Source: a virus. Taken from it: 25,847 nucleotides of DNA. This document shows, piece by piece, positions 7,643 to 25,847 of this stretch. Location: the IMG/VR virus record IMGVR_UViG_3300034073_000968, positions 1-25,847 of that record. The stretch is one strand, 5' to 3'. The notes beneath the pieces were generated by a model. It was not told the origin of the DNA. It made no database searches and worked only from the letters and a program-made list of their open reading frames with translations. Position numbers and translations under genes: made by a program. Positions within the stretch are counted from its first letter, which is position 1. Each line of letters opens with the position of its first letter.

Positions 7643-8220
7643 TACAGGGCTGCGGCGCAGAGGATGAAGTAGTCGTTACCGGCAGCGTCAACAATCTTGA
7701 TGCCTTTGGTAGCGGTGGCAGTGGTGTCCTGCAACATAGCTGCGGGCACGTTCATCAAGGTGCCCAAAGCGGTAGCGCCGCTGTTAGACACACGCATGAA
7801 GGCGGCGGTTGCGGGCACGGTTGCGTCAGAAGCAATGTCGGAGTCCAACTGGAGCGAAGCGATAGTGCCGCCGGCGTTGGTAGCAGCGCCAAGGCCCAAT
7901 GTCACGCGCAAAGCGTTAGCGGCGCCAGAGATGGTGCCAGAGCCAGTGACGGACAAGGAGATGTGGCCACCGTTGATAGTGCCGCCAGCAGCAGCGCCTG
8001 CGCCGGTAACAACAGAGAACCAACGACCAGTTTCACCCGAACCAGTCGAAGTGAAAGTAAGGCGTTGATAGGTCAAACGTGTGTCGCCAGTCGCAGCCGA
8101 AGTGGTGGCGTACGAAGCGTTAACGTTGCCGGCAGTTGTAACTGCCAAGGGGGAAGCTGCCGAGCCAGTGAGAAAGCCGTTGTCTGAGGCTACTGGTCCA
8201 GAAAATCGAGTTTGTGCCAT
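7642..8220 (-). CDS. Beta-rich virion protein (192 aa)
   Basis: A 192-residue protein beginning MAQTRFSGPVASDNGFLTGS, almost free of charged residues and dominated by Gly, Ala, Thr and Ser. The pattern FSGPVxSxNGF at the N-terminus is one I recall from virion proteins encoded beside major capsid genes. A GGAG ribosome binding site lies just upstream, inside the last codons of the GIY-YIG gene, and the start overlaps that gene's stop as TAATG. This tight fit suggests the endonuclease gene was inserted without disturbing its start. A capsid decoration role is a guess. Confidence 0.7.
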   Translation of the reverse strand: MAQTRFSGPVASDNGFLTGSAASPLAVTTAGNVNASYATTSAATGDTRLTYQRLTFTSTGSGETGRWFSVVTGAGAAAGGTINGGHISLSVTGSGTISGAANALRVTLGLGAATNAGGTIASLQLDSDIASDATVPATAAFMRVSNSGATALGTLMNVPAAMLQDTTATATKGIKIVDAAGNDYFILCAAAL

Positions 8221-8810
8221 TACAAGGCTCCTTTTAAGTGTGCGTATTTTAGCGCCAAGCGCCGGGTTGAACTTGTGTCTTTTTGAACGCGCCGCGCACG
8301 CTCAGCGTAGGACATGTCCGGATTATCTAAAATAAATTTTAGCCGTGCAATAAATTTCGGGTCCGAGTGAAAGCGTGCCATCTGCGCCTCTGAAAGTGTT
8401 TTTCTATAAGTTTCGGAACGAAAGTCAAATGTTGTAGCTCGTCGCCCCAAACGAATTCGCTTTTTTGTTTCTTCACTGTGTTTTTTACCGCGCATGGGGG
8501 CTTTTGCAAAATCTGCTATGTTGTACACGGTTGGCTCGACAAACCAAGCCGCGCCTTTCAAAAAGGTTTCTTCCAACATGTCCAGTTCTTGCAAATCTTT
8601 GCATTCAACCTCAATAGCGCCGTAGAAATTCTCAGCGCCGTATTTGTTATACGCGTGCTGCAAATGCGGGTTAGTATGCGCCCCTTTGCGTAGCAGTCGA
8701 AAGTGTTCTTTGATGCGTTTTTCAACTCTTTGGGACTGCCCCACGTAGCACTGCCCGGTTGCTTTGTTAACCAGTTTGTACAGCCCGCAAGTGTTTATTT
8801 TGTATGGCAT
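8220..8810 (-). CDS. Free-standing GIY-YIG homing endonuclease with NUMOD3-like motif
   Basis: A 196-residue DNA-cutting enzyme. From the ATG at 8808-8810 the protein shows GLY at residues 9-11 and YVG at 22-24 (the GIY and YIG strands), Arg28, a glutamate pair at 80-81 that would supply the catalytic Glu, and Asn98. Residues 106-122 (MRGKKHSEETKKRIRLG) match the NUMOD3 DNA-binding motif of phage homing endonucleases, and the C-terminal basic helices may be a further DNA-binding part. The longer frame upstream runs through the terminator into the capsid gene, so the internal Met is chosen, although no strong ribosome binding site precedes it. It sits between the capsid gene and a virion gene as a mobile intruder. 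Confidence 0.9.
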   Translation of the reverse strand: MPYKINTCGLYKLVNKATGQCYVGQSQRVEKRIKEHFRLLRKGAHTNPHLQHAYNKYGAENFYGAIEVECKDLQELDMLEETFLKGAAWFVEPTVYNIADFAKAPMRGKKHSEETKKRIRLGRRATTFDFRSETYRKTLSEAQMARFHSDPKFIARLKFILDNPDMSYAERARRVQKDTSSTRRLALKYAHLKGAL

Positions 8811-8850
8811 AAAGAACTTAAAAAGGTGTTGTGTGTGCCAGTCTACCACT

Positions 8851-8876
8851 AAAAGAAAGGGGGCCGAAGCCCCCTT
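8851..8876 (-). terminator. Rho-independent terminator after the capsid gene
   Basis: Read leftward, the sequence is an eight-base-pair perfect stem (AAGGGGGC / GCCCCCTT) with a TTCG tetraloop, followed by TCTTTT. It lies 16 bases beyond the stop codon of the major capsid gene and before the GIY-YIG gene. Such a strong terminator would give an abundant short capsid mRNA and leave the downstream virion genes to read-through or another promoter. Confidence 0.9.
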
Positions 8877-8892
8877 GTAGGTTTTGCCAGAA

Positions 8893-9822
8893 TTAAGCTC
8901 CGGCGCTGCCCCAAACCCCGAGGGGGTCTGACCAGCCGAAGCTGTAACGCTCACGAGACTTGTAACGAACGTTACCAGTATCGAAGTCGCCGTCCATCGA
9001 GTTAGCCAAAGGCATACGCTCGAAGTGCTTCAAGCCGTTAGGCACGTCGGTCAACAAGAACCAAGCGTTGCTGTCTGTCAAGAAGTGGTTGACAGTGTAG
9101 CCTTCAGGGATTGCACCCATCTGCTTCAACGCGTTGATGTCGTTGTCGGCGGTTGCCACACGCAGTTCGGTGTCCAGCAAACGCTTGGCAACGAACATCA
9201 GTGCAGGAGGAATCACCAACTTGCGAGGCTTGGCTGCGATCAACAGACCACGTTCGTCGGTCCAAGCAGCGATCTGAATCACAGCGTTTTCCAACGAGGT
9301 TTCGTTCAAGTCAACACCAGTGGTGGGGCTGTTGTAGTTAACAGAACCGTTCACCAAGGGATGGCCAACACGTTGGCTGGATGAGTTGACGCCGAACAAA
9401 GACACGCCGTCGCCACCGAGGTAGTTGCCGTTGAAACCGTTGTTGACAACGGAAGCAGCTTTAACTTGCTTGGTGTAAGCCATGGCGCGGGCCAAAGACT
9501 TGGTGTAACGAGCAGACAGGCTGTCGTACAAGTTGTCTTCGATCGCTTCTTCGGTGATCGAGAAGCCCAAGGCGATGGTTTCGTGGTTGTAGCGTGCTGT
9601 GAACGCTTCTTGCGCATTGTCATAAGCAATGGCAGAACCTTCGTTCTTAACAGGAGCTGCACCGAAGCCGGCCAACTTGGTTTCTTCTTCGAAGCTACGC
9701 TCAGATTTCTCTGTTTCGTAGAGTTCTTTGTGCTCTTCGCCGTAACGTGCGTACTCCATGCCGAACAAAGCGTTCAAGCCGGGCAACAGTTCCTTGAGCA
9801 GTTGTGCGCGTGAAATTGCCAT
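8893..9822 (-). CDS. Major capsid protein
   Basis: A 309-residue protein beginning MAISRAQLLKELLPGLNALF, with FTARYNHETIALGFSITEEA near residues 75-95 and a C-terminal MDGDFDTGNVRYKSRERYSF. These blocks match, from memory, the major head protein of podovirus-type environmental phages, with an HK97-like fold presumed. Context agrees: the scaffold-like gene lies upstream, the portal and terminase further upstream, and the gene ends in the window's strongest terminator, as expected for the most abundant virion protein. An AAGGAG ribosome binding site precedes the ATG. There is no sign of a protease gene, so no prohead cleavage is evident. Confidence 0.85.
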   Translation of the reverse strand: MAISRAQLLKELLPGLNALFGMEYARYGEEHKELYETEKSERSFEEETKLAGFGAAPVKNEGSAIAYDNAQEAFTARYNHETIALGFSITEEAIEDNLYDSLSARYTKSLARAMAYTKQVKAASVVNNGFNGNYLGGDGVSLFGVNSSSQRVGHPLVNGSVNYNSPTTGVDLNETSLENAVIQIAAWTDERGLLIAAKPRKLVIPPALMFVAKRLLDTELRVATADNDINALKQMGAIPEGYTVNHFLTDSNAWFLLTDVPNGLKHFERMPLANSMDGDFDTGNVRYKSRERYSFGWSDPLGVWGSAGA

Positions 9823-17816: not shown

Positions 17817-17892
17817 TGGAGCTTCGTGCGGGAGTCGAACCCAGCGTTTACGCAGTGAAAGTGCGCTGTCCTAACCGTTAGACGAACGAAGC
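17817..17892 (-). tRNA. tRNA-Glu (UUC)
   Basis: Read leftward, a seven-pair acceptor stem (GCTTCGT / ACGAAGC), a D-arm, an anticodon stem GCGCA / TGCGT (one GU) around loop CTTTCAC, and a T-arm with GGGTTCGACT. The anticodon TTC is at 17857-17859. TCCA follows the acceptor stem, so CCA is encoded and the discriminator is U. Last gene of the cluster, three bases from tRNA-Trp. Confidence 0.92.
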
Positions 17893-17895
17893 GAA

Positions 17896-17969
17896 TGGCA
17901 TCCCGGCAGGGAATCGAACCCCGGACAACGGACTTGGAAACCGCTGTGTTACCACTACACCACCGAGAA
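17896..17969 (-). tRNA. tRNA-Trp (CCA), unusual anticodon stem
   Basis: Acceptor TTCTCGG pairs with CCGGGAT except for a U1-U72 mismatch. The D-arm is GTGT AGTGGTA ACAC, and the T-arm CGGGG TTCGATT CCCTG is perfectly paired. The loop TTCCAAG puts anticodon CCA at 17935-17937, and a U-U mismatch closes the anticodon stem (GCGGT / TCCGT). Discriminator G and an encoded CCA fit tRNA-Trp. Reading a Gly UCC anticodon would need a worse stem and the wrong discriminator. Confidence 0.75.
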
Positions 17970-17971
17970 TC

Positions 17972-18057
17972 TGGGGGAGCCTGAAGGAATCGAACCCTTA
18001 CCCATTCCTGAATAGCCGGGGGTTCAAGCCCCGTTTGCACCCTGTGCGCCAAGCTCC
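17972..18057 (-). tRNA. tRNA-Ser (UGA), class II
   Basis: Acceptor GGAGCTT / AGGCTCC, perfect anticodon stem CGGGG / CCCCG around loop CTTGAAC with anticodon TGA at 18024-18026, and a long variable arm with a six-pair stem (CTATTC / GAATGG), as expected for serine. CCA is encoded. The discriminator base is C rather than the usual G, and the D-arm (GCAC AGG GTGC) has a very short loop. Confidence 0.85.
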
Positions 18058-18061
18058 AATC

Positions 18062-18137
18062 TGGCTGTCCGGGTAGGCATCGAACCTACGCACACCGCCT
18101 TAACAGGGCGGCGCTCTACCGACTGAGCTACCGGACA
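18062..18137 (-). tRNA. tRNA-Asn (GUU)
   Basis: Canonical cloverleaf: acceptor TGTCCGG / CCGGACA, D-arm AGCTCAGTCGGTAGAGC, anticodon stem CCGCC / GGCGG with loop CTGTTAA (anticodon GTT at 18102-18104), T-arm GTAGG TTCGATG CCTAC, discriminator G and encoded CCA. Four bases separate it from tRNA-Ser. Confidence 0.95.
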
Positions 18138-18147
18138 AAATTCTTTT

Positions 18148-18222
18148 TGGGGTGGCATACGAGACTTGAACTCGTACTACCAAGGTCACAGCATGGGGTG
18201 CTAACCGTTACACCAATGCCAC
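18148..18222 (-). tRNA. tRNA-His (GUG) without an encoded G-1
   Basis: A perfect seven-pair acceptor stem (GTGGCAT / ATGCCAC), D-arm GTGT / GCAC, loop CTGTGAC with anticodon GTG at 18187-18189, and one mismatch in the anticodon stem. Discriminator C and an encoded CCA are typical of tRNA-His. The base at position -1 is T, so the extra G normally recognised by histidyl-tRNA synthetase is not encoded. Confidence 0.92.
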
Positions 18223-18251
18223 ACCAAAAAGAACTTGGGGGATGGGTAAGG

Positions 18252-18337
18252 TGGTGGGGACGGCTGGATTCGAACCAGCTCAACCAGAGGTAACAGTTTT
18301 ACAGACTGCCGCGCCTCACCATCTGCGCCGCATCCCC
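18252..18337 (-). tRNA. tRNA-Tyr (GUA), class II
   Basis: Acceptor GGGGATG / CGTCCCC, D-stem GCGC / GCGC, anticodon stem GCAGT / ACTGT around loop CTGTAAA (anticodon GTA at 18300-18302), a long variable region and T-arm GCTGG TTCGAAT CCAGC. Discriminator A and an encoded CCA are as expected for tyrosine. Confidence 0.93.
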
Positions 18338-18392
18338 GTTGCAGGGATGAATCAATAACGCCAATGGCGTTCGGATGGTGATGAATTGAAAT

Positions 18393-18467
18393 TGGTCTGT
18401 GCGGCAGGATTCGAACCTGCGACCCCTCGTTTCCAAAACGAGAACGCTACCACTGCGCTACGCACAG
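18393..18467 (-). tRNA. tRNA-Pro (UGG)
   Basis: A perfect acceptor stem (CTGTGCG / CGCACAG), D-arm GCGCAGTGGTAGCGT, anticodon stem CTCGT / ACGAG around loop TTTGGAA (anticodon TGG at 18433-18435), T-arm GCAGG TTCGAAT CCTGC, discriminator A and encoded CCA. Confidence 0.95.
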
Positions 18468-19230: not shown

Positions 19231-19268
19231 AGCTTTAGCGATTCGGGATTCGCTCGGTCGCATTGTTC

Positions 19269-19294
19269 GGGGTCAGTTGACCCCTTTTCTTTTT
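19269..19294 (+). terminator. Palindrome GGGGTCAGTTGACCCC with T-rich tail in the leader of the first rightward gene
   Basis: Seven-base perfect arms around GT, followed by TTTTCTTTTT. It has the look of an intrinsic terminator or attenuator placed between the candidate promoter and the first start codon at 19305. It is also the first full copy of the palindrome family of this region. Confidence 0.6.
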
Positions 19295-19304
19295 GGAGAT
19301 AGTT

Positions 19305-19709
19305 ATGACACAGAAACTTAAAACCCTCATCATCAACGCTTGCACACAACATGACGGCTTGCAAGCCACAGTGAATGACATTGCCAAGGAAGCCAAGCGC
19401 ATATCGTTCGATGCCTACCGCGCCATTGTGGTCGATGCGTTGAGCGTGAAGTACGGCGTTGAGCCCCACGAGTCGAAGTCAACCAAGAAGCTAACCTTCG
19501 TGAAGGACAGCGCGGCAGAGCAAAAGCTGTCGCGCATGTTGAAGCTACACCCCAACTACGGCGCTGGCACGAAGTCACACCGCAAAGAGGTCAAGGTAGA
19601 CAAGGCGTTGGTTGCTGGCATCGTGAGCACTGTGGTTGACGCTGGCTTGACCAAAGCCGAGTTCGATGCGCTGATTTCTCAGCTTCGCGCATCAGTGCAG
19701 TTCAAGTGA
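19305..19709 (+). CDS. Hypothetical basic protein (134 aa)
   Basis: A 134-residue protein from the ATG at 19305-19307, preceded by GGAG seven bases upstream; a TTG-initiated form four codons longer is unlikely. It begins MTQKLKTLIINACTQHDGLQ and is mostly helical with many Lys residues (EVKVDKALVAGIVSTVVDAG, then LTKAEFDALISQLRASVQFK). I do not recognise a family. It is the first gene of the rightward block behind a promoter candidate and an attenuator-like palindrome, so it may be expressed early. It ends in TTCAAGTGA, as does the next gene, and a palindrome follows at once. Confidence 0.75.
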   Translation: MTQKLKTLIINACTQHDGLQATVNDIAKEAKRISFDAYRAIVVDALSVKYGVEPHESKSTKKLTFVKDSAAEQKLSRMLKLHPNYGAGTKSHRKEVKVDKALVAGIVSTVVDAGLTKAEFDALISQLRASVQFK

Positions 19710-19711
19710 AC

Positions 19712-19742
19712 GGGGTCACTTGACCCCTTTGAAAATTTGCGG
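19712..19742. repeat. Palindrome GGGGTCACTTGACCCC plus AT-rich tail
   Basis: Perfect seven-base arms with centre CT at 19712-19727, starting two bases after a stop codon. The following 15 bases (TTTGAAAATTTGCGG) match 12 of 15 bases after the copy at 21243. The sequence after that can fold as GCGGC / GCCGC. Confidence 0.85.
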
Positions 19743-19812
19743 CGGCTCTGCCTGCGAGGGCTGGCCGCTGTTTCATTTCGTGTCTATCAATCATTTCTCA
19801 GGAGAATCAATC

Positions 19813-20058
19813 ATGCGTAACCTCTCAACACTTGCCAACACCCCAAGCATCAAGCACATGGGCACACTCAGCCTACCCATTCACGGCGAGTTCAACATCA
19901 TGTACTACTACCCCTTGGGCAAAGCGCACAAAGACTACTTCATGGTCAATGTGTACCGCAAGGGCGCAAGCCGTGGCCTATGCTTAACAGGCGAAGCCGC
20001 ATTCGAGGCGTGGCTCGAATCCATGCAAGCACCAGTGCAAACCAAGCTGTTCAAGTGA
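19813..20058 (+). CDS. Hypothetical protein (81 aa)
   Basis: An 81-residue protein from the ATG at 19813-19815, chosen for its AGGAG ribosome binding site; the open frame extends 31 codons further upstream through the palindrome. It begins MRNLSTLANTPSIKHMGTLS and has an aromatic-rich middle (FNIMYYYPLGKAHKDYFMVN). The C-terminal part (GEAAFEAWLESMQAPVQTKL) is helical. No family is recognised. Its last codons (TTCAAGTGA) repeat those of the previous gene, and another palindrome of the same family follows. Confidence 0.7.
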   Translation: MRNLSTLANTPSIKHMGTLSLPIHGEFNIMYYYPLGKAHKDYFMVNVYRKGASRGLCLTGEAAFEAWLESMQAPVQTKLFK

Positions 20059-20064
20059 GGGCGA

Positions 20065-20084
20065 AGGGGGTCAAGCGACCCCCT
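20065..20084. repeat. Palindrome AGGGGGTC AAGC GACCCCCT
   Basis: Eight-base perfect arms with loop AAGC, six bases after the stop codon of the 81-residue gene. It is a variant of the GGGGTCAnnTGACCCC family in which the arms are closed one base earlier. No T-run follows. Confidence 0.85.
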
Positions 20085-20162
20085 AATGATTTCTCACATT
20101 TCAAAACAAGGTTAAATCGCGGTTTTTCTAGGTAGGTGTGGATTTCGCAGGGCGTGCCCCAA

Positions 20163-20398
20163 CTCGGACACCTGCTAGCCCGCATGAACCCTAGAAATTT
20201 TGGCGAATCGTCCTAATAATATATCTTTTTATTTATGTATATATATAAGGGGGAGTATTTATATATGTGTGTTCTTTCGCGTCTTTATTCTTTCTTGTTT
20301 TTTGTGGCTTGCCTTGTTGCATTGCGGCACAAAGATATTAATTTCGGACAGTTGACCTTTTTATCTAGGCTTCATGCGGCCTGCGAGGTGTCCGTGTT
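20163..20398. repeat. Long imperfect inverted repeat around an AT-rich core
   Basis: The arm at 20163-20199, reverse-complemented, matches the arm at 20362-20398 at 30 of 37 positions without gaps; both contain CTAGG, TTCATGCGG and AGGTGTCCG. The arms are 162 bases apart. Outside the arms, TTTCTAG sequences recur at 20125-20131 and 20409-20415. Confidence 0.75.
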
Positions 20399-20469
20399 GG
20401 TAGCCCTTTTCTAGAAATCATTGGATACTTCATATAAAATCGTCCCATTCCTGTTTTTGAAAGTGAGAA

Positions 20470-21231
20470 ATGACTATGCGTTTACAGTATCGGCACTACA
20501 TGCACATGAATGACAACCAGATTCGTGAGCATTTCAAGAAGCTACGCCGCCACCCCGAAGCGGCAGAGCACATCATCAAAGTGGTTGAAGCACAGCGGCA
20601 CGCACTACGCGTGGCACGAGGCACCAAGTTTCAGCTCGACAAAACATGGCGAGAAATCTTAGACCCTGCCAAGTATGAGTTGCGACTGGTCGAGCGCATG
20701 CTGAAATATCCAGCGGGGTCAGGTGACCCCCGAATCGTCGCCCTCACACGCTATCGAGAGGTTATCGCCACCCTCATTTCTCACCTTTCACTGGCAAAGC
20801 GGCGCAAAGGCATGACGCCTACAAAGCTGGCGCTTGAGGTAGAGGCTAAGAACAAAGGCATGCACTGGACTGATTGGGTAGACGATGACGACCGGCAAGA
20901 GGTGATCGACCTATTCAATGCGATACCCCATAAGCGAGGGGCTAAGCGCAAGCTGCCTTTCGAGCGCACCATACCAAAGAGTGACTGGGCAAAGCGTCAC
21001 GCACGCCTACTCAAGCGCACCGAGAAAGAGTTGGTCATGGCCGGTGTCATATACAACAAGGCACGACTTGCCGATAGCGACGAGCGCATGGAAAAAGCGA
21101 CACGCACCATAGCCAAGATAAAGCAAGCCCTTGCGTGGATACGCGAGGCCGAGGAAGGCACAGACCTGCCTCCAACATGGAGTGGGTTTTATTTAGCGAA
21201 CTATTGGAAAGAGCGCGAGGGCGCTCTTTGA
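20470..21231 (+). CDS. Hypothetical basic helical protein (253 aa)
   Basis: A 253-residue protein beginning MTMRLQYRHYMHMNDNQIRE. It is rich in Lys, Arg, Glu and Leu, with long predicted helices (REHFKKLRRHPEAAEHIIKV, DWAKRHARLLKRTEKELVMA, MEKATRTIAKIKQALAWIRE). No zinc site, membrane segment or catalytic motif is seen. The net positive charge suggests nucleic acid binding. It lies directly after the inverted-repeat region, so an origin-related or regulatory role is possible but only positional. One copy of the palindrome (20715-20730) sits inside the coding sequence and encodes GSGDP. The start has a weak GTGAG-type ribosome binding site; ATG at 20476 is an alternative. Confidence 0.7.
   Translation: MTMRLQYRHYMHMNDNQIREHFKKLRRHPEAAEHIIKVVEAQRHALRVARGTKFQLDKTWREILDPAKYELRLVERMLKYPAGSGDPRIVALTRYREVIATLISHLSLAKRRKGMTPTKLALEVEAKNKGMHWTDWVDDDDRQEVIDLFNAIPHKRGAKRKLPFERTIPKSDWAKRHARLLKRTEKELVMAGVIYNKARLADSDERMEKATRTIAKIKQALAWIREAEEGTDLPPTWSGFYLANYWKEREGAL
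20715..20730. repeat. Palindrome GGGGTCAGGTGACCCC inside a gene
   Basis: Perfect seven-base arms, centre GG, identical over 16 bases to the copies at 21243 and 22370. This is the only copy located within a recognised coding sequence, where it keeps the frame open. Confidence 0.9.
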
Positions 21232-21273
21232 CGGGTGTCAAGGGGGTCAGGTGACCCCCTTCAAAGTTTGCGG
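21220..21273. repeat. Composite repeat: stop-codon element plus palindrome
   Basis: GCGCTCTTTGACGGGTGTCA at 21221-21240 contains the stop codon of the 253-residue gene. A perfect 20-base palindrome (AGGGGGTCAGGTGACCCCCT, 21241-21260) follows without a gap, then CTTCAAAGTTTGCGG-type sequence. The first element, with one extra G at 21220, recurs exactly at 25813-25833. GTTTGCG (21266-21272) can pair with CGCAAAC (21286-21292), followed by CTTTT. Confidence 0.85.
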
Positions 21274-21324
21274 GACTTGGCCACACGCAAACCTTTTATC
21301 AACTGGCCTGATAGGAGAAAGATC

Positions 21325-21444
21325 ATGATGACAGACAAAGAACTAGCCGCAACGCTACGCACAGCGGCGCAAAGCGCGGACAACATAGCACTGAAGATGC
21401 TACTCATCATGGCGGCAGACCGCATCGAGGGGGAAATGAAATGA
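21325..21444 (+). CDS. Very small protein (39 aa)
   Basis: A 39-residue protein from the ATG at 21325-21327, preceded by AGGAG at a good distance; a longer frame starting upstream lacks such a site. It reads MMTDKELAATLRTAAQSADN, then a hydrophobic helix (IALKMLLIMAADRIEGEMK), so it is probably one amphipathic helical unit. The stop is followed closely by two further small genes in the same direction. I do not recognise it. Small size keeps confidence moderate, although the start signal is good. Confidence 0.6.
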   Translation: MMTDKELAATLRTAAQSADNIALKMLLIMAADRIEGEMK

Positions 21445-21477
21445 GAAAACCACACAGACACGCTGAGGAGAACTGCA

Positions 21478-21651
21478 ATGACCGCACATGAACTACTCAA
21501 AGAACAGATGCCGCTAGTGCGGCGAGTCGAAGCCAACTTGCAAGCGTATGGATATAAGAAAGGTGACGCCGACTACAACCACGCTTTCGAGACAGAGATC
21601 AAGTACTACCGCAAGTTCGGATGGACTGTTAGCAAAGGAGAAGGTGTATGA
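21478..21651 (+). CDS. Small protein (57 aa) overlapping the next gene
   Basis: Found by reading the gap. ATG at 21478-21480, GAGGAG seven bases upstream, TGA at 21649-21651, 57 residues: MTAHELLKEQMPLVRRVEAN, then a Tyr-rich part (LQAYGYKKGDADYNHAFETE) and a C-terminal YYRKFGWTVSKGEGV. The stop overlaps the next ATG as ATGA, so translation is coupled. The strong initiation site and overlap make this a likely gene. No family is recognised. Confidence 0.75.
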   Translation: MTAHELLKEQMPLVRRVEANLQAYGYKKGDADYNHAFETEIKYYRKFGWTVSKGEGV

Positions 21652-21980
21652 ACTGCAAGCAAGGCGACTTGGCAATCATCGTGCGGGCTACCCTGCCCGA
21701 AAACATAGGCAAGATCGTAGAAGTGGTGCGCCCTTATGTAGTCGGAGATGAATTTTTTCCCATAGAAGGCCGTCCAGCGTGGCGACTACACGAGGATGCA
21801 TTTAGGGGCGCCTTTGTGTGGGTCATACGCAGTCACGGGGCACCTCTCGCATGGACAGCCGCTGGAACCAAAGAAGTCCGGCTGTTCAAAGCGCGCCCCT
21901 TCGCTGACGACTGCCTGCGACCCATCCCGCGCCTAGATGAACCCGAAGAAACTACAACCGATAAGGAGTTGACCGTATGA
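21648..21980 (+). CDS. Conserved phage protein with beta-barrel-like pattern (110 aa)
   Basis: A 110-residue protein beginning MNCKQGDLAIIVRATLPENI, followed by GKIVEVVRPYVVGDEFFPIE. The C-K-x-G-D-L-A-x-I-V-R start, a GKIVEV strand and a late RPIP block (LRPIPRLDEPEETTTDKEL) are familiar to me from small uncharacterised proteins of phages and prophages. The pattern suggests a small SH3-like barrel. A GGAG ribosome binding site lies in the end of the previous gene, and its stop overlaps the next start as ATGA, forming a chain of three coupled genes. Confidence 0.75.
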   Translation: MNCKQGDLAIIVRATLPENIGKIVEVVRPYVVGDEFFPIEGRPAWRLHEDAFRGAFVWVIRSHGAPLAWTAAGTKEVRLFKARPFADDCLRPIPRLDEPEETTTDKELTV

Positions 21981-22324
21981 AAACAAATGAACTGACAGGC
22001 GCCGCACTTGACTGGGCGGTGGCCCGCGCGAATCAAGAAGGCGAGCCGGAATTTGATTACTACATCGACCACAAGAACACCGTCATGGAGGAGAGAGGTG
22101 ACTTGTCTTGGGTGTATAGCCCATCAACCAACTGGGCGCAAGGCGGGCCGATCATTGAGAGGGAGAAAATTCAGATTCTGCCAAGAAGTGCCGATTGGGT
22201 GGCTATTCGTTTTGGCCCGGGCAAACCAATAACAGGCACAACACCACTCATCGCCGCCATGCGGTGCTTCGTTGCATCAAAGCTAGGCGACAACATCGAA
22301 ATACCTGAGGAGCTGGCATCTTGA
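21977..22324 (+). CDS. NinX / DUF2591-like phage protein
   Basis: A 115-residue protein beginning MKTNELTGAALDWAVARANQ. Hallmarks are ELTGAALDWAVA at the N-terminus, YSPSTNWAQGGPIIEREKI at about 47-65, and GTTPLIAAMRCFVASKLGD at about 86-104. This order is that of the DUF2591 family, which includes NinX from the nin region of lambdoid phages; the biochemical role is unknown to me. The start overlaps the preceding stop as ATGA. The stop TGA lies inside the shared TTGACGGGTGTCA element. Confidence in the family is high. Confidence 0.88.
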   Translation: MKTNELTGAALDWAVARANQEGEPEFDYYIDHKNTVMEERGDLSWVYSPSTNWAQGGPIIEREKIQILPRSADWVAIRFGPGKPITGTTPLIAAMRCFVASKLGDNIEIPEELAS

Positions 22325-22386
22325 CGGGTGTCAGCTCTTTTTGTATGTGGGGGGACTCTCCCACGCAACGGGGTCAGGTGACCCCC
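22315..22386. repeat. Composite repeat between NinX-like and amidoligase genes
   Basis: TTGACGGGTGTCA at 22321-22333 covers the stop codon, as in two other genes. It is followed by GCTCTTTTTG, an inverted repeat (GTGGG / CCCAC within 22347-22364) and the palindrome GGGGTCAGGTGACCCC at 22370-22385. The next gene's ribosome binding site begins 26 bases further on. Confidence 0.8.
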
Positions 22387-22421: not shown

Positions 22422-24365
22422 ATGCGTATTTACTTTGTAAACTTCATCACACCTGAGACAGGGACACAATACAACCAAGTCTTTGACCTCGAGGGCGGCG
22501 AGGGTGTCGATCGTCTCATATCAACGCACAACCGCATCGCGGTGCTCAACATCGGCAAGTTCTACTACGCAATGCATCGCAATAGCAACATGGGCGTGAA
22601 CGGTCGTATGGATATGACCGCAGAGGCTCGCGGTGTGCTTGTGGCCAATAGCGTTGATGACTACATCAACAAAATCCAAAGCGCTTGTGAGTCATACAAC
22701 GACAGGCCTTACTTTAGCTATGAGTTTCGTAGAGAGTGGCACGAGCCTGTACAGCGCGTGCGCCGTAAGCCAATGATTCGTGAGTTCGCTATCGAGCGCT
22801 ACATCAAAGAGCAAGCAATCAGTATGCACGAGTTGCTCAGCGGCATGGCCAATCGCCCCTGCGAAGGCATGTCTGGTACCACAATCAAAATACTAGGCCG
22901 CGCCTCTGAGCTTTTGTACAACCGCGCTAACTACGGAGGTGCCAGACGCATCGGGGCCTCGCGAATGGCCGGTGTTATCTCATACAAGGGGCAAGATTAC
23001 TCCGATCTTGCCTACGGCAGCGACTTGTCTCGGTTCAAGCAAATACGCAAAACAATGAAGCTGCTTGGTGAGCAGGTACGCCAGTGCATCGCGTCTGAGT
23101 CTACAGAGTACCTTGATACATTCATCCTTGAGAACTTTAGCGGACGCAGTTTAACGCATGTGGACACATTCGAGAAAGTTAGAGACCATCTGCGCCGTAA
23201 GTTCAACATACGCTTGCAAGTCATGCGGCCTGATTGCGGCCACTTCGAGCACTCTGCCAATGTGCACCATATTCAAGACACTTCGTACTGCGAGGAGTGT
23301 TACGACGAGTATGCAGTGCGGTGCGTAGATGATGACGAGATGTACCACTGTGACAATGTGTACTACTGGGATAGCGATCAGGAGTATCACTTGACGCCTG
23401 AGCCTGAGCCTGAGCCAGAGGACGACGGCGAAGACGCTAACAGCATGATGGACTACTCCACCAATGTGCTCAACCACCTCAACAAAGACACTTCGTTCAC
23501 GCCCTCACCATACGGCGAGTTGCTCATGGGTATCGAGTTGGAGATCGGCATCGGTGACCGTAGCCAGCGTCAAGCAGTCGAGGGTATTCGCTCATCCCTT
23601 GGTGAAGACTATGTTGTGTGTAAGTATGACGGTTCATTGCCCGATGACGGCATCGAGATCGTTACTGCACCACGCAAGCTAGACCACCACATCAAGCAGT
23701 TCAAAGCGTGGGATGTTCCTAGTGGCTATCGTGCATGGGACGCCAAGAAGTGCGGCATGCACATTCACATCGACTCGCGTGGCTTCTCGCGTATGACTCT
23801 CGGCAAGTTCTTTATGTTCTTCAACGCCGATTCAAACGCTGACTTCATTCGCAAGATCGCTGGCCGTCATCCACTGCACGACAACCAAGCGCGTGAGTAT
23901 TGTGCCGCTGAGCAACAACACATCCTTGTTAATCCAAGCACAGCAGTCAAAGGCAAATCGACTGAGCGCTATCGCATCATCAACACACAGAACCTCAGTG
24001 CTCGTGAGTGCAAGCGTCTCGGTCTGCCTGAGACATATGGTCGATACAACACAGTCGAGCTTCGCATCTTCCGCGCAACGCTTAACAAGGCGCGACTACT
24101 TGCACAGATGGAGTTCACACACGCTGTCGTTATGTTCTGTCGTGTTGCATCGTGGCGCAACCTCAACGGCGATTCGTTCGTGGCGTGGCTATCTACTACG
24201 CAGAATGTCTACCCTCACTTGTCTGACTGGTATGGCGTGCGCCGCAAGAAAGCCGCCAAGCCTGTTGTCCCACCGGTTCAAGACTCATGCCCTGATGCAA
24301 CACCTGCACCCGAGGCCGTGACTGCCGAACCGCGCGATGTGGCCCGCGCAAGGGGGCGTCTTTGA
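22422..24365 (+). CDS. Amidoligase (COOH-NH2 ligase) family protein with Cys/His-rich segment
   Basis: A 647-residue protein with GGAG seven bases before the ATG. Residues 1-260 form an unrecognised, largely helical region. Residues 272-310 are Cys/His-rich (C272, H274, C290, C293, C301, C310) and probably bind zinc. After an acidic Pro/Glu linker (325-336), residues 364-575 carry the amidoligase pattern: GIELEIGIG (Glu372, Glu374), KYDGSLPDDGIEIVTAP (Asp403, Glu412), CGMHIHID (His447, His449) and GRYNTVELRIFR (Glu546, Arg548). Enzymes of this glutamine-synthetase-like superfamily use ATP to join a carboxyl to an amine. The neighbouring amidotransferase may supply ammonia. The acceptor and product are unknown. 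Confidence 0.78.
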   Translation: MRIYFVNFITPETGTQYNQVFDLEGGEGVDRLISTHNRIAVLNIGKFYYAMHRNSNMGVNGRMDMTAEARGVLVANSVDDYINKIQSACESYNDRPYFSYEFRREWHEPVQRVRRKPMIREFAIERYIKEQAISMHELLSGMANRPCEGMSGTTIKILGRASELLYNRANYGGARRIGASRMAGVISYKGQDYSDLAYGSDLSRFKQIRKTMKLLGEQVRQCIASESTEYLDTFILENFSGRSLTHVDTFEKVRDHLRRKFNIRLQVMRPDCGHFEHSANVHHIQDTSYCEECYDEYAVRCVDDDEMYHCDNVYYWDSDQEYHLTPEPEPEPEDDGEDANSMMDYSTNVLNHLNKDTSFTPSPYGELLMGIELEIGIGDRSQRQAVEGIRSSLGEDYVVCKYDGSLPDDGIEIVTAPRKLDHHIKQFKAWDVPSGYRAWDAKKCGMHIHIDSRGFSRMTLGKFFMFFNADSNADFIRKIAGRHPLHDNQAREYCAAEQQHILVNPSTAVKGKSTERYRIINTQNLSARECKRLGLPETYGRYNTVELRIFRATLNKARLLAQMEFTHAVVMFCRVASWRNLNGDSFVAWLSTTQNVYPHLSDWYGVRRKKAAKPVVPPVQDSCPDATPAPEAVTAEPRDVARARGRL

Positions 24366-24564
24366 CCGGCGTATACGCGAGGAATTCCAACCCCCACCTC
24401 GACCCACAGGGGCGTCTCTGCACGAGCGCTACCGAGCGGCCCTTGCCGAAGCTACACGATGCGCCCAGCGCGGCGACCCGCGTGGCCATGCGGAGGCCAC
24501 CAACATGGCGCGTCAACTGCGCCGTGAAATTGTTTTCTCATCAACCAACCCTTCATTCATTTAA
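24337..24564 (+). CDS. Small protein overlapping the amidoligase gene (75 aa)
   Basis: A 75-residue frame starting inside the end of the amidoligase gene (29-base overlap) and ending 15 bases before the amidotransferase. The first 20 residues (MWPAQGGVFDRRIREEFQPP) are followed by a Pro-rich turn and a long Ala/Arg helix (SLHERYRAALAEATRCAQRG, then EATNMARQLRREIVF). Position between two probable partners and sensible protein composition after the overlap support it. There is no clear ribosome binding site, so coupling would be needed. It may be an accessory subunit, or the frame may be incidental. Confidence 0.55.
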   Translation: MWPAQGGVFDRRIREEFQPPPRPTGASLHERYRAALAEATRCAQRGDPRGHAEATNMARQLRREIVFSSTNPSFI

Positions 24565-24579
24565 TCAGGAGTATTTACT

Positions 24580-25824
24580 ATGTGTCTCATCATTACTGGC
24601 AACGCCGCAAAAGTTCGTTCTACTTTGCTCAACACTCACGCTCTGCTTGCAGACATCTTCGACTCAAACCCCGATGGCATCGGCATCATGTATGGCACAG
24701 CCAAGGGGTTGAAGGTCGTCAAGTCTCTGCCTCGCAACCTCGGTGAAGCGACTAACATGATTCAGCGCATGCCCACGGATGATCGTGATGTGGCTATTCA
24801 CTTCCGCTGGACTACACACGGTCACACTAACCTCGACAACTGTCACCCATATGATGTGGTGCCCGGCTATATCGCCATGATGCACAACGGTGTCTTGCAC
24901 ACAGGCAACGATGCAGACAAGGCGCGTAGCGACACATTCCACTTCATCAACGACTACTTGTCTGACTCTGTGCACAAGTATCCTGAGTTGATTCACGACA
25001 CAGGCTATCTCACGATGGTCGCTGAGTTCATCGGTGACAATCGCTTTGTGTTCATGGATGGTGCCGGTCGCATGTCCCATGTCAATCACGACCAAGGCAT
25101 CGAGCATGACGGCATGTGGTTCAGCAATACCTATGCATGGTCGCCTAGCAAACTCATCCCTCACTACTATTCCAACAAGTATGGCCGCAAGCACAAGTCA
25201 TGGGCTTTCGGTGGCCACATGGGTATGGGTGGCTGGGACGACGAGAACGACTACTACGGCTTCAAAGACTACGATGTGACTGGCAAGTCGCAACACCCAC
25301 AAGCCGCGCTGTCGTATGCCAAGAGCGCGCACCATGCCGATGCTAACGAGGACGGTGTGATCGAGGCCAAGGGCGAGGTGATTGATGGCGTTGACGCTGA
25401 TGTGGCGTGCAATGCGGCTGAGGCGGGCGCTCTGCTCGAGTATCTTCTTGATGCAGATGTGGAATCACTCACTGCTTGCCTTAGCACATTCCCTATCACA
25501 ACTATCAACACTATCTTCAAGTATTACCTTGCAACACCAGCACACGCAAAAGCCGAAGACATGACAGGCTTCGAGGCCGAGATCTTTCAAGCGGCTATTG
25601 ACGGTGATGTGGCGGCGATGCACGACTTCATCCACGAGGGCAAGAGTGCAAGCGTAATGGCTGAGGTGTTCTGCTACTACTGCTACTGGTACGAGCTGGT
25701 CGATGAGGGCGAGCAAGACCCCGTGGGTGACGGCTCTGACGGTGATGACGATGGCATCGTGGAGGACGAGGCTGACGCGCGCGCTGAAGCTGAGGCGTTC
25801 GTAGCCAACGCTGGCGCTCTTTGA
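24580..25824 (+). CDS. Class-II glutamine amidotransferase (Ntn hydrolase) family protein
   Basis: A 414-residue protein with AGGAG upstream of the ATG. After removal of Met, Cys2 would be the N-terminal nucleophile. Residues 74-81 (HFRWTTHG), 87-90 (NCHP) and 101-104 (MHNG) match the HxRxxTxG, HP and HNG blocks of GATase-II domains, which release ammonia from glutamine. The C-terminal half (about 205-414) is unrelated, beginning Gly/Tyr/Asp-rich (GGHMGMGGWDDENDYYGFKD) and ending in a very acidic tail (about 375-405). It probably works with the amidoligase encoded just upstream. Its stop codon lies in the 21-base repeat shared with the 253-residue gene. Confidence 0.82.
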   Translation: MCLIITGNAAKVRSTLLNTHALLADIFDSNPDGIGIMYGTAKGLKVVKSLPRNLGEATNMIQRMPTDDRDVAIHFRWTTHGHTNLDNCHPYDVVPGYIAMMHNGVLHTGNDADKARSDTFHFINDYLSDSVHKYPELIHDTGYLTMVAEFIGDNRFVFMDGAGRMSHVNHDQGIEHDGMWFSNTYAWSPSKLIPHYYSNKYGRKHKSWAFGGHMGMGGWDDENDYYGFKDYDVTGKSQHPQAALSYAKSAHHADANEDGVIEAKGEVIDGVDADVACNAAEAGALLEYLLDADVESLTACLSTFPITTINTIFKYYLATPAHAKAEDMTGFEAEIFQAAIDGDVAAMHDFIHEGKSASVMAEVFCYYCYWYELVDEGEQDPVGDGSDGDDDGIVEDEADARAEAEAFVANAGAL

Positions 25825-25847
25825 CGGGTGTCATTTGTAGGGGGTCA
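25813..25847. repeat. Composite repeat at the right edge, truncated
   Basis: The 21 bases 25813-25833 are identical to 21220-21240 and again contain the stop codon of the gene. Seven bases later GGGGGTCA runs to the end of the window and looks like the left arm of another palindrome of the family. Confidence 0.8.

Follow-up and report, generated by a model that had tools for sequence, protein, structure and literature searches.

A conserved amidoligase and glutamine amidotransferase gene pair in a tailed-phage fragment and its relatives

Results and discussion

The locus

Which reaction could a phage carry out with a ligase and a glutaminase encoded one behind the other? This question is raised by a tailed-phage fragment (25.8 kb) from the IMG/VR collection, a virus record of 25,847 bases which was analysed over its whole length and is called the window here. 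An initial annotation had described three consecutive rightward reading frames close to its right end, and all three were found: the gene for an amidoligase (AL), a short reading frame and the gene for a class-II glutamine amidotransferase (GAT). Their positions, together with those of further features, are given in Table 1. The source is a phage of freshwater type. Its phage origin, likewise assumed in the initial annotation, is backed by genes for the terminase large subunit (TerL), the portal and the major head protein, which together with genes for tail-type proteins occupy the minus strand in the left two thirds of the window. The right arm consists of plus-strand genes, AL and GAT among them. 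A homing endonuclease-like reading frame (8220-8954, minus strand) adjoins and slightly overlaps the major head gene.

Table 1. Position of features in the window. L002 is the closest relative; L003 and L055 are further related loci.
Feature	Position	Strand	Basis or remark
Seven tRNA genes (Glu, Trp, Ser, Asn, His, Tyr, Pro)	17817-18467	-	upstream of terminase gene
Palindrome GGGGTCA-GG-TGACCCC	22370..22386	.	about 50 nt 5' of AL start
AL, Amidoligase_2-type (glutamine-synthetase-fold) ligase, 647 aa	22422..24365	+	PF12224 above cut-off; Foldseek; BFVD
AL variable N-terminal region, residues 1-184	22422..22973	+	alignable in L002 only
Putative zinc-binding module CxH...CxxC, AL residues 265-325	23214..23396	+	invariant Cys/His, well folded
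AL catalytic domain, residues 366-606	23517..24239	+	ExE, CGxHxHxD, GRHP, ExRxFR motifs; invariant columns, Pfam match
75-residue basic protein, pI 11.0	24337..24564	+	accessory; C-terminal homologues in L002, L003, L055 only
GAT, class-II (Ntn) glutamine amidotransferase, 414 aa	24580..25824	+	PF13230 above cut-off; Foldseek
GAT glutaminase domain, residues 1-193	24580..25158	+	Cys2, RWTTHG, HNG, SDT; invariant in 25 relatives
GAT helical C-terminal domain, residues 282-373	25423..25698	+	A361, C365, W370 invariant
First half of the same palindrome, after GAT	25840..25847	.	cut by window end; complete at same place in L002 (11290)

The amidoligase

Over residues 440-570, AL matches the Amidoligase_2 profile (PF12224) with E=8.1e-5 and 23.1 bits, above the curated Pfam cut-off of 22 bits, and is thus a member of this family. 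The same profile is matched by all of its 21 relatives (E<=0.1). In PHROG, AL furthermore matches two amidoligase families (2443 and 7469) and, at 1.3e-18, family 16683. When the predicted model was compared by Foldseek, glutamine synthetase 8fbp was the best among solved structures (probability 0.98, E 4.9e-3); this match is weak, as is the one to 1tt4 (probability 0.99, E 1.0e-2). The match to a predicted phage "Amidoligase enzyme" in BFVD is strong (E 8e-15). With such E-values and a model that is confident in part, these comparisons weakly suggest a glutamine-synthetase-like fold, and the conserved ExE and ExR residues of the glutamine-synthetase/GCS-like fold are present in AL. Invariant among the 21 relatives are E372/E374 within GIELEI, C444-G445-x-H447-x-H449-x-D451 and E546-x-R548, and in the catalytic domain also K401, D403-S405 and a GRHP stretch. 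All motifs from which the first gene had initially been read as an amidoligase are among these, and the assignment now has the support of the Pfam profile, PHROG families and fold matches, the latter weak for solved structures. A PDB sequence search with the AL profile returned one chance match (E=3), and a scan of viral contigs with the single AL sequence recovered no relatives.

Residues 1-184 of AL differ from phage to phage. In loci other than L002, tblastn coverage of AL begins near residue 184-205; residues 1-128 have a pLDDT below 50 in the predicted model, and for residues 1-250 the dN/dS is about 0.45 compared with 0.26 for the whole of AL. Residues 265-325 are predicted with high confidence (pLDDT about 90) and contain the Cys/His-rich stretch noticed initially, of which C272, H274, C290 and C293 proved invariant in 21 relatives. 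From this pattern we infer that the CxH...CxxC module binds a metal, putatively zinc. It is connected to the catalytic domain by an acidic linker and a Tyr-Ser motif (Y345, S346). According to the alignment, a Cys-rich stretch precedes the ligase domain also in the proteins of the Manatee Spring, MEP401 and Marvin phages, whereas it is absent from LUZ24 gp18.

The glutamine amidotransferase

GAT scores with E=1.3e-5 and 24.8 bits against the GATase_4 profile PF13230 (Pfam cut-off 23), which is matched by 25 of 25 GAT relatives, and the PHROG families agree with this assignment. Its model matches GlmS glutaminase, EgtC and PurF in Foldseek with probability 1.00 and E-values from 1.1e-5, thus it has a glutaminase fold. 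C2, R76, T79-H80-G81, N103-G104 and S117-D118-T119 are invariant in 25 sequences; they include the Cys2 nucleophile and the glutamine-binding and oxyanion-hole residues of class II (C2, R76, THG, N103-G104, D118). Profile, fold and residues therefore bear out what the initial annotation had derived for the last gene from its motifs. The first approximately 190 residues were modelled as a mostly confident domain, and the helical C-terminal domain is a possible docking part. The initial annotation had also considered that the acidic C-terminal extension may define the substrate. This is unlikely in general: the tail occurs only in the window and in L002, and was rejected as a general substrate determinant.

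Conservation of the gene pair

A query with GAT yielded 37 related loci from viral contigs. With the AL alignment as query, 126 relatives were obtained and 80 loci retained. After duplicate fetches had been dropped, 97 distinct AL contigs or records remained (91 of them viral contigs), with 59 AL clusters at 90% identity. GAT is found downstream of AL and on the same strand in 92 of these 97. Four of the five loci without GAT are truncated, as the contig ends within 400 nt of the AL stop. The one true exception is the C. difficile (Clostridioides) phage AR1086-1, in which no GAT was detectable and the gene after AL did not align as a GATase; AL may hence be able to use free ammonia or another amine. 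Both genes are mostly 12-81 nt apart; longer gaps are restricted to Marvin and the clade of the window, and in MEP401 the genes overlap by 9 nt. The same order exists in distant phages (Marvin gp105-106, MEP401 gp05-06, MW202733, LUZ24 gp18-19), and in a Christensenellales phage about 1.1 kb separate the amidoligase from a GATase match downstream of it. Burkholderiales hosts are hinted at by two bacterial MAG contigs, with the labels Oxalobacteraceae and Comamonadaceae, that carry the pair as well. Both genes are under purifying selection, with dN/dS of 0.26 (AL) and 0.16 (GAT). Thus, the survey of co-occurrence agrees with the initial view that amidoligase and amidotransferase act together, but not with the inclusion of the small protein in the module.

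The latter had been counted as a module member. Among about 97 AL loci, only L002, L003 and L055 have counterparts of its C-terminal approximately 48 residues. The homologue in L002 has 163 residues and starts with nearly the same ones, therefore the copy in the window looks like a shortened form. On these grounds a role as third component is ruled out. The reading frame overlaps AL by 29 nt and no ribosome-binding site is visible, but with a dN/dS of about 0.2-0.3 (53-58 codons) it is probably translated. Its match to DUF6435 (19.3 bits) is below the Pfam cut-off of 26.9. In L002, the gap between AL and GAT holds a further reading frame which by eye is HNH-endonuclease-like, and in phage UFV-P2 an HNH endonuclease is located between amidoligase and GATase (PMC3890496). 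The gap therefore seems prone to insertions.

Comparison with known phage systems

The pairing of both genes has already been published for several phages, and the window is a further example with an unusual domain make-up. In Marvin (Mycobacterium phage, Marvinvirus), gp105 and gp106 follow each other on the same strand as in the window, with a Cys-rich N-terminal stretch before the ligase domain; these proteins are shorter and about 25-32% identical, and the gap is 128 nt as judged by the domain match. The glutamine amidotransferase domain named in the annotation of Marvin gp105 (L041:2491-3852) looks like a wrong label, since this protein matches the AL profile as well as, by tblastn, AL itself. 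A two-gene unit, reported as PF12224 plus PF13522 (PMC10580990), is formed also by the overlapping genes gp05 and gp06 of the OM43 phages MEP401 and MEP402 (Zobellviridae), at about 25-32% identity and with another N-terminal region. A similar layout is seen in Caudoviricetes MW202733, the Manatee Spring podovirus, where Cys-rich module, acidic linker and ligase domain are followed by the GATase (24-34% identity).

LUZ24/phiEco32-type cassettes resemble the window in having adjacent Amidoligase_2 and class-II GATase genes among the early genes (PMC3890496, PMC5498523). LUZ24 has in addition a COOH-NH2 ligase, a RimK-like and a cyclotransferase gene. The COOH-NH2 ligase (PF14395) and the AIG2/GGACT cyclotransferase (PF06094) were both found in LUZ24 but in none of ten related contigs, which may be incomplete; the window itself ends at GAT. 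A search with PF08443 (ATP-grasp/RimK) gave no matches and missed also the annotated LUZ24 RimK-like gene, the positive control. On the ground of PF14395 and PF06094, a full peptidoglycan cassette was rejected for the window group, which, as far as such a suggestive absence goes, looks like a two-gene version of it.

Proposed function and alternatives

It is established that class-II glutaminases liberate ammonia from glutamine and that ligases of the glutamine-synthetase fold use ATP to activate a carboxylate. We regard it as likely, though with considerable reserve, that AL and GAT form a two-subunit amidating enzyme of the phage, glutamine-dependent and produced early in infection. GAT would hydrolyse glutamine via its N-terminal cysteine and pass the released ammonia to AL in a complex; AL would activate the carboxylate of its substrate with ATP and convert it into a carboxamide. 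The constant pairing argues for this transfer and for carboxamide formation. The likely chemistry is narrowed to the latter by the window group, about 90 contigs with the two-gene form, apparently without other cassette enzymes. In AL, the variable N-terminus and the CxH...CxxC module are the candidate parts for substrate choice and probably bind and select the substrate, which would more likely be a host macromolecule (protein or cell-wall peptide) than a free metabolite. In the available literature we found no biochemistry on this family and no reported substrate of the pair.

Where the substrate is concerned, the initial annotation had named a protein, a peptide tag or a cell-wall peptide stem as candidates. 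The cell wall has been proposed from multi-gene cassettes (PMC5498523, PMC10580990). The pair could accordingly be a remnant or subset of a phiEco32/LUZ24-type peptidoglycan modification cassette, amidating or altering peptide stems to block superinfection, a claim on the substrate that overlaps with the amidating enzyme favoured here. In LUZ24, a single block indeed contains the genes for COOH-NH2 ligase, Amidoligase_2, GATase, a RimK-like protein and gamma-glutamyl cyclotransferase, and superinfection exclusion has been suggested repeatedly (PMC10580990, PMC5498523, PMC11318856). However, PF14395 and PF06094 are absent not only from the ten related contigs but also from Marvin, MEP401 and MW202733, with LUZ24 as positive control, and LUZ24 gp18 is too distant for the AL alignment profile (A1) and shows no Cys-rich module when aligned. 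We therefore hold this reading to be possible but doubtful. Still more speculative, and improbable as it stands, is a self-contained system for protein carboxamidation, in which the Cys/His module and the variable N-terminus would let AL recognise a specific host protein (e.g. of transcription or defence), whose acidic side chains or C-terminus it would amidate with ammonia supplied by GAT. If true, very different phages would share a post-translational takeover modification.

Ligases with a glutaminase-type partner are known from EgtA/EgtC and MurT/GatD, which are analogies only. In MurT/GatD, a Mur ligase works with a glutaminase of another, class-I-like type to amidate peptidoglycan. EgtC is an amidohydrolase, and its step in ergothioneine synthesis comes after that of the glutamylcysteine ligase EgtA. 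The main rival to joint amide formation follows the EgtC example: AL would use an amine other than ammonia to form an amide, gamma-glutamyl or otherwise, and GAT would trim or recycle the product. The top fold matches of GAT include EgtC structures, 1tt4, titled predicted glutathione synthase, is a top match of AL, and the glutamine amidotransferase of a related cassette has been read as a degradation enzyme (PMC5498523). Yet GAT has its lowest E-values with GlmS glutaminases, it has kept every glutamine-binding motif (RWTTHG, HNG, SDT), and supply of ammonia explains the fixed pairing at least as well, so that we consider such opposing activities rather unlikely. A service in the modification of phage DNA bases or nucleotides might be thought of, too, since the pair lies in the early region near replication genes and zinc-like modules can bind nucleic acid. 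But among 15 related contigs plus four named phages, none was found to have a QueC or thymidylate-synthase family gene, nor were other base-modification genes seen; this idea is not supported and appears very improbable.

At present the result is a clean but expected annotation. The pair recurs in unrelated phages, namely a mycobacterial siphovirus, OM43 Zobellviridae, Pseudomonas podoviruses and the window group, and finding the substrate would explain a widespread phage function so far unassigned.

Genomic context and possible regulation

A 253-residue protein (ORF253, 20470-21231), for which no Pfam match was obtained and no family assigned, is encoded upstream of the pair. Homologues occur within a few kb of AL and GAT in dozens of related loci, usually upstream but downstream in L031, and ORF253 is an early gene conserved in this phage group. 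Genes for DNA polymerase, exonuclease and helicase share loci with the pair in relatives. A position in the rightward arm, downstream of ORF253 and, in relatives, in loci shared with replication genes, is typical of early genes. Directly 5' of the AL unit lies a gene for a P22 NinX-like protein (21977-22324; PF10765, E 9e-23), which in L019, L027, L036 and L038 is situated after GAT instead of before AL.

The palindrome ahead of AL has the same position in L002, L004 and L049. Its core GGGTCA-N2-TGACCC is present in five copies in the right arm of the window, where 0 are expected by chance, and it never appeared in shuffles. Palindromes of the form GGGGTCA-N2 or N3-TGACCCC are placed between early genes in the window (19265-22386 and 25840-25847), L002, L004, L049, L099, L117 and L126; in related contigs they are confined to a few kb around the AL-GAT unit. 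The spacer has 2 bases in the window and L002, 3 in L004, L049 and L099, and is mixed in L117, hence it is nearly constant within one phage and differs between related ones. This pattern favours operator sites of a dimeric regulator, and the copy before AL is a probable regulatory site heading the unit. Because another one directly follows GAT in L002, AL, the small reading frame where present, and GAT probably form one transcription unit.

A second repeat, CTCTTTGACGGGTGTCA, was found at 21220-21240, 22318-22336 and 25813-25833, with a variant near 24353. It is placed at the stop codons of several genes of the right arm and recurs in related phages.
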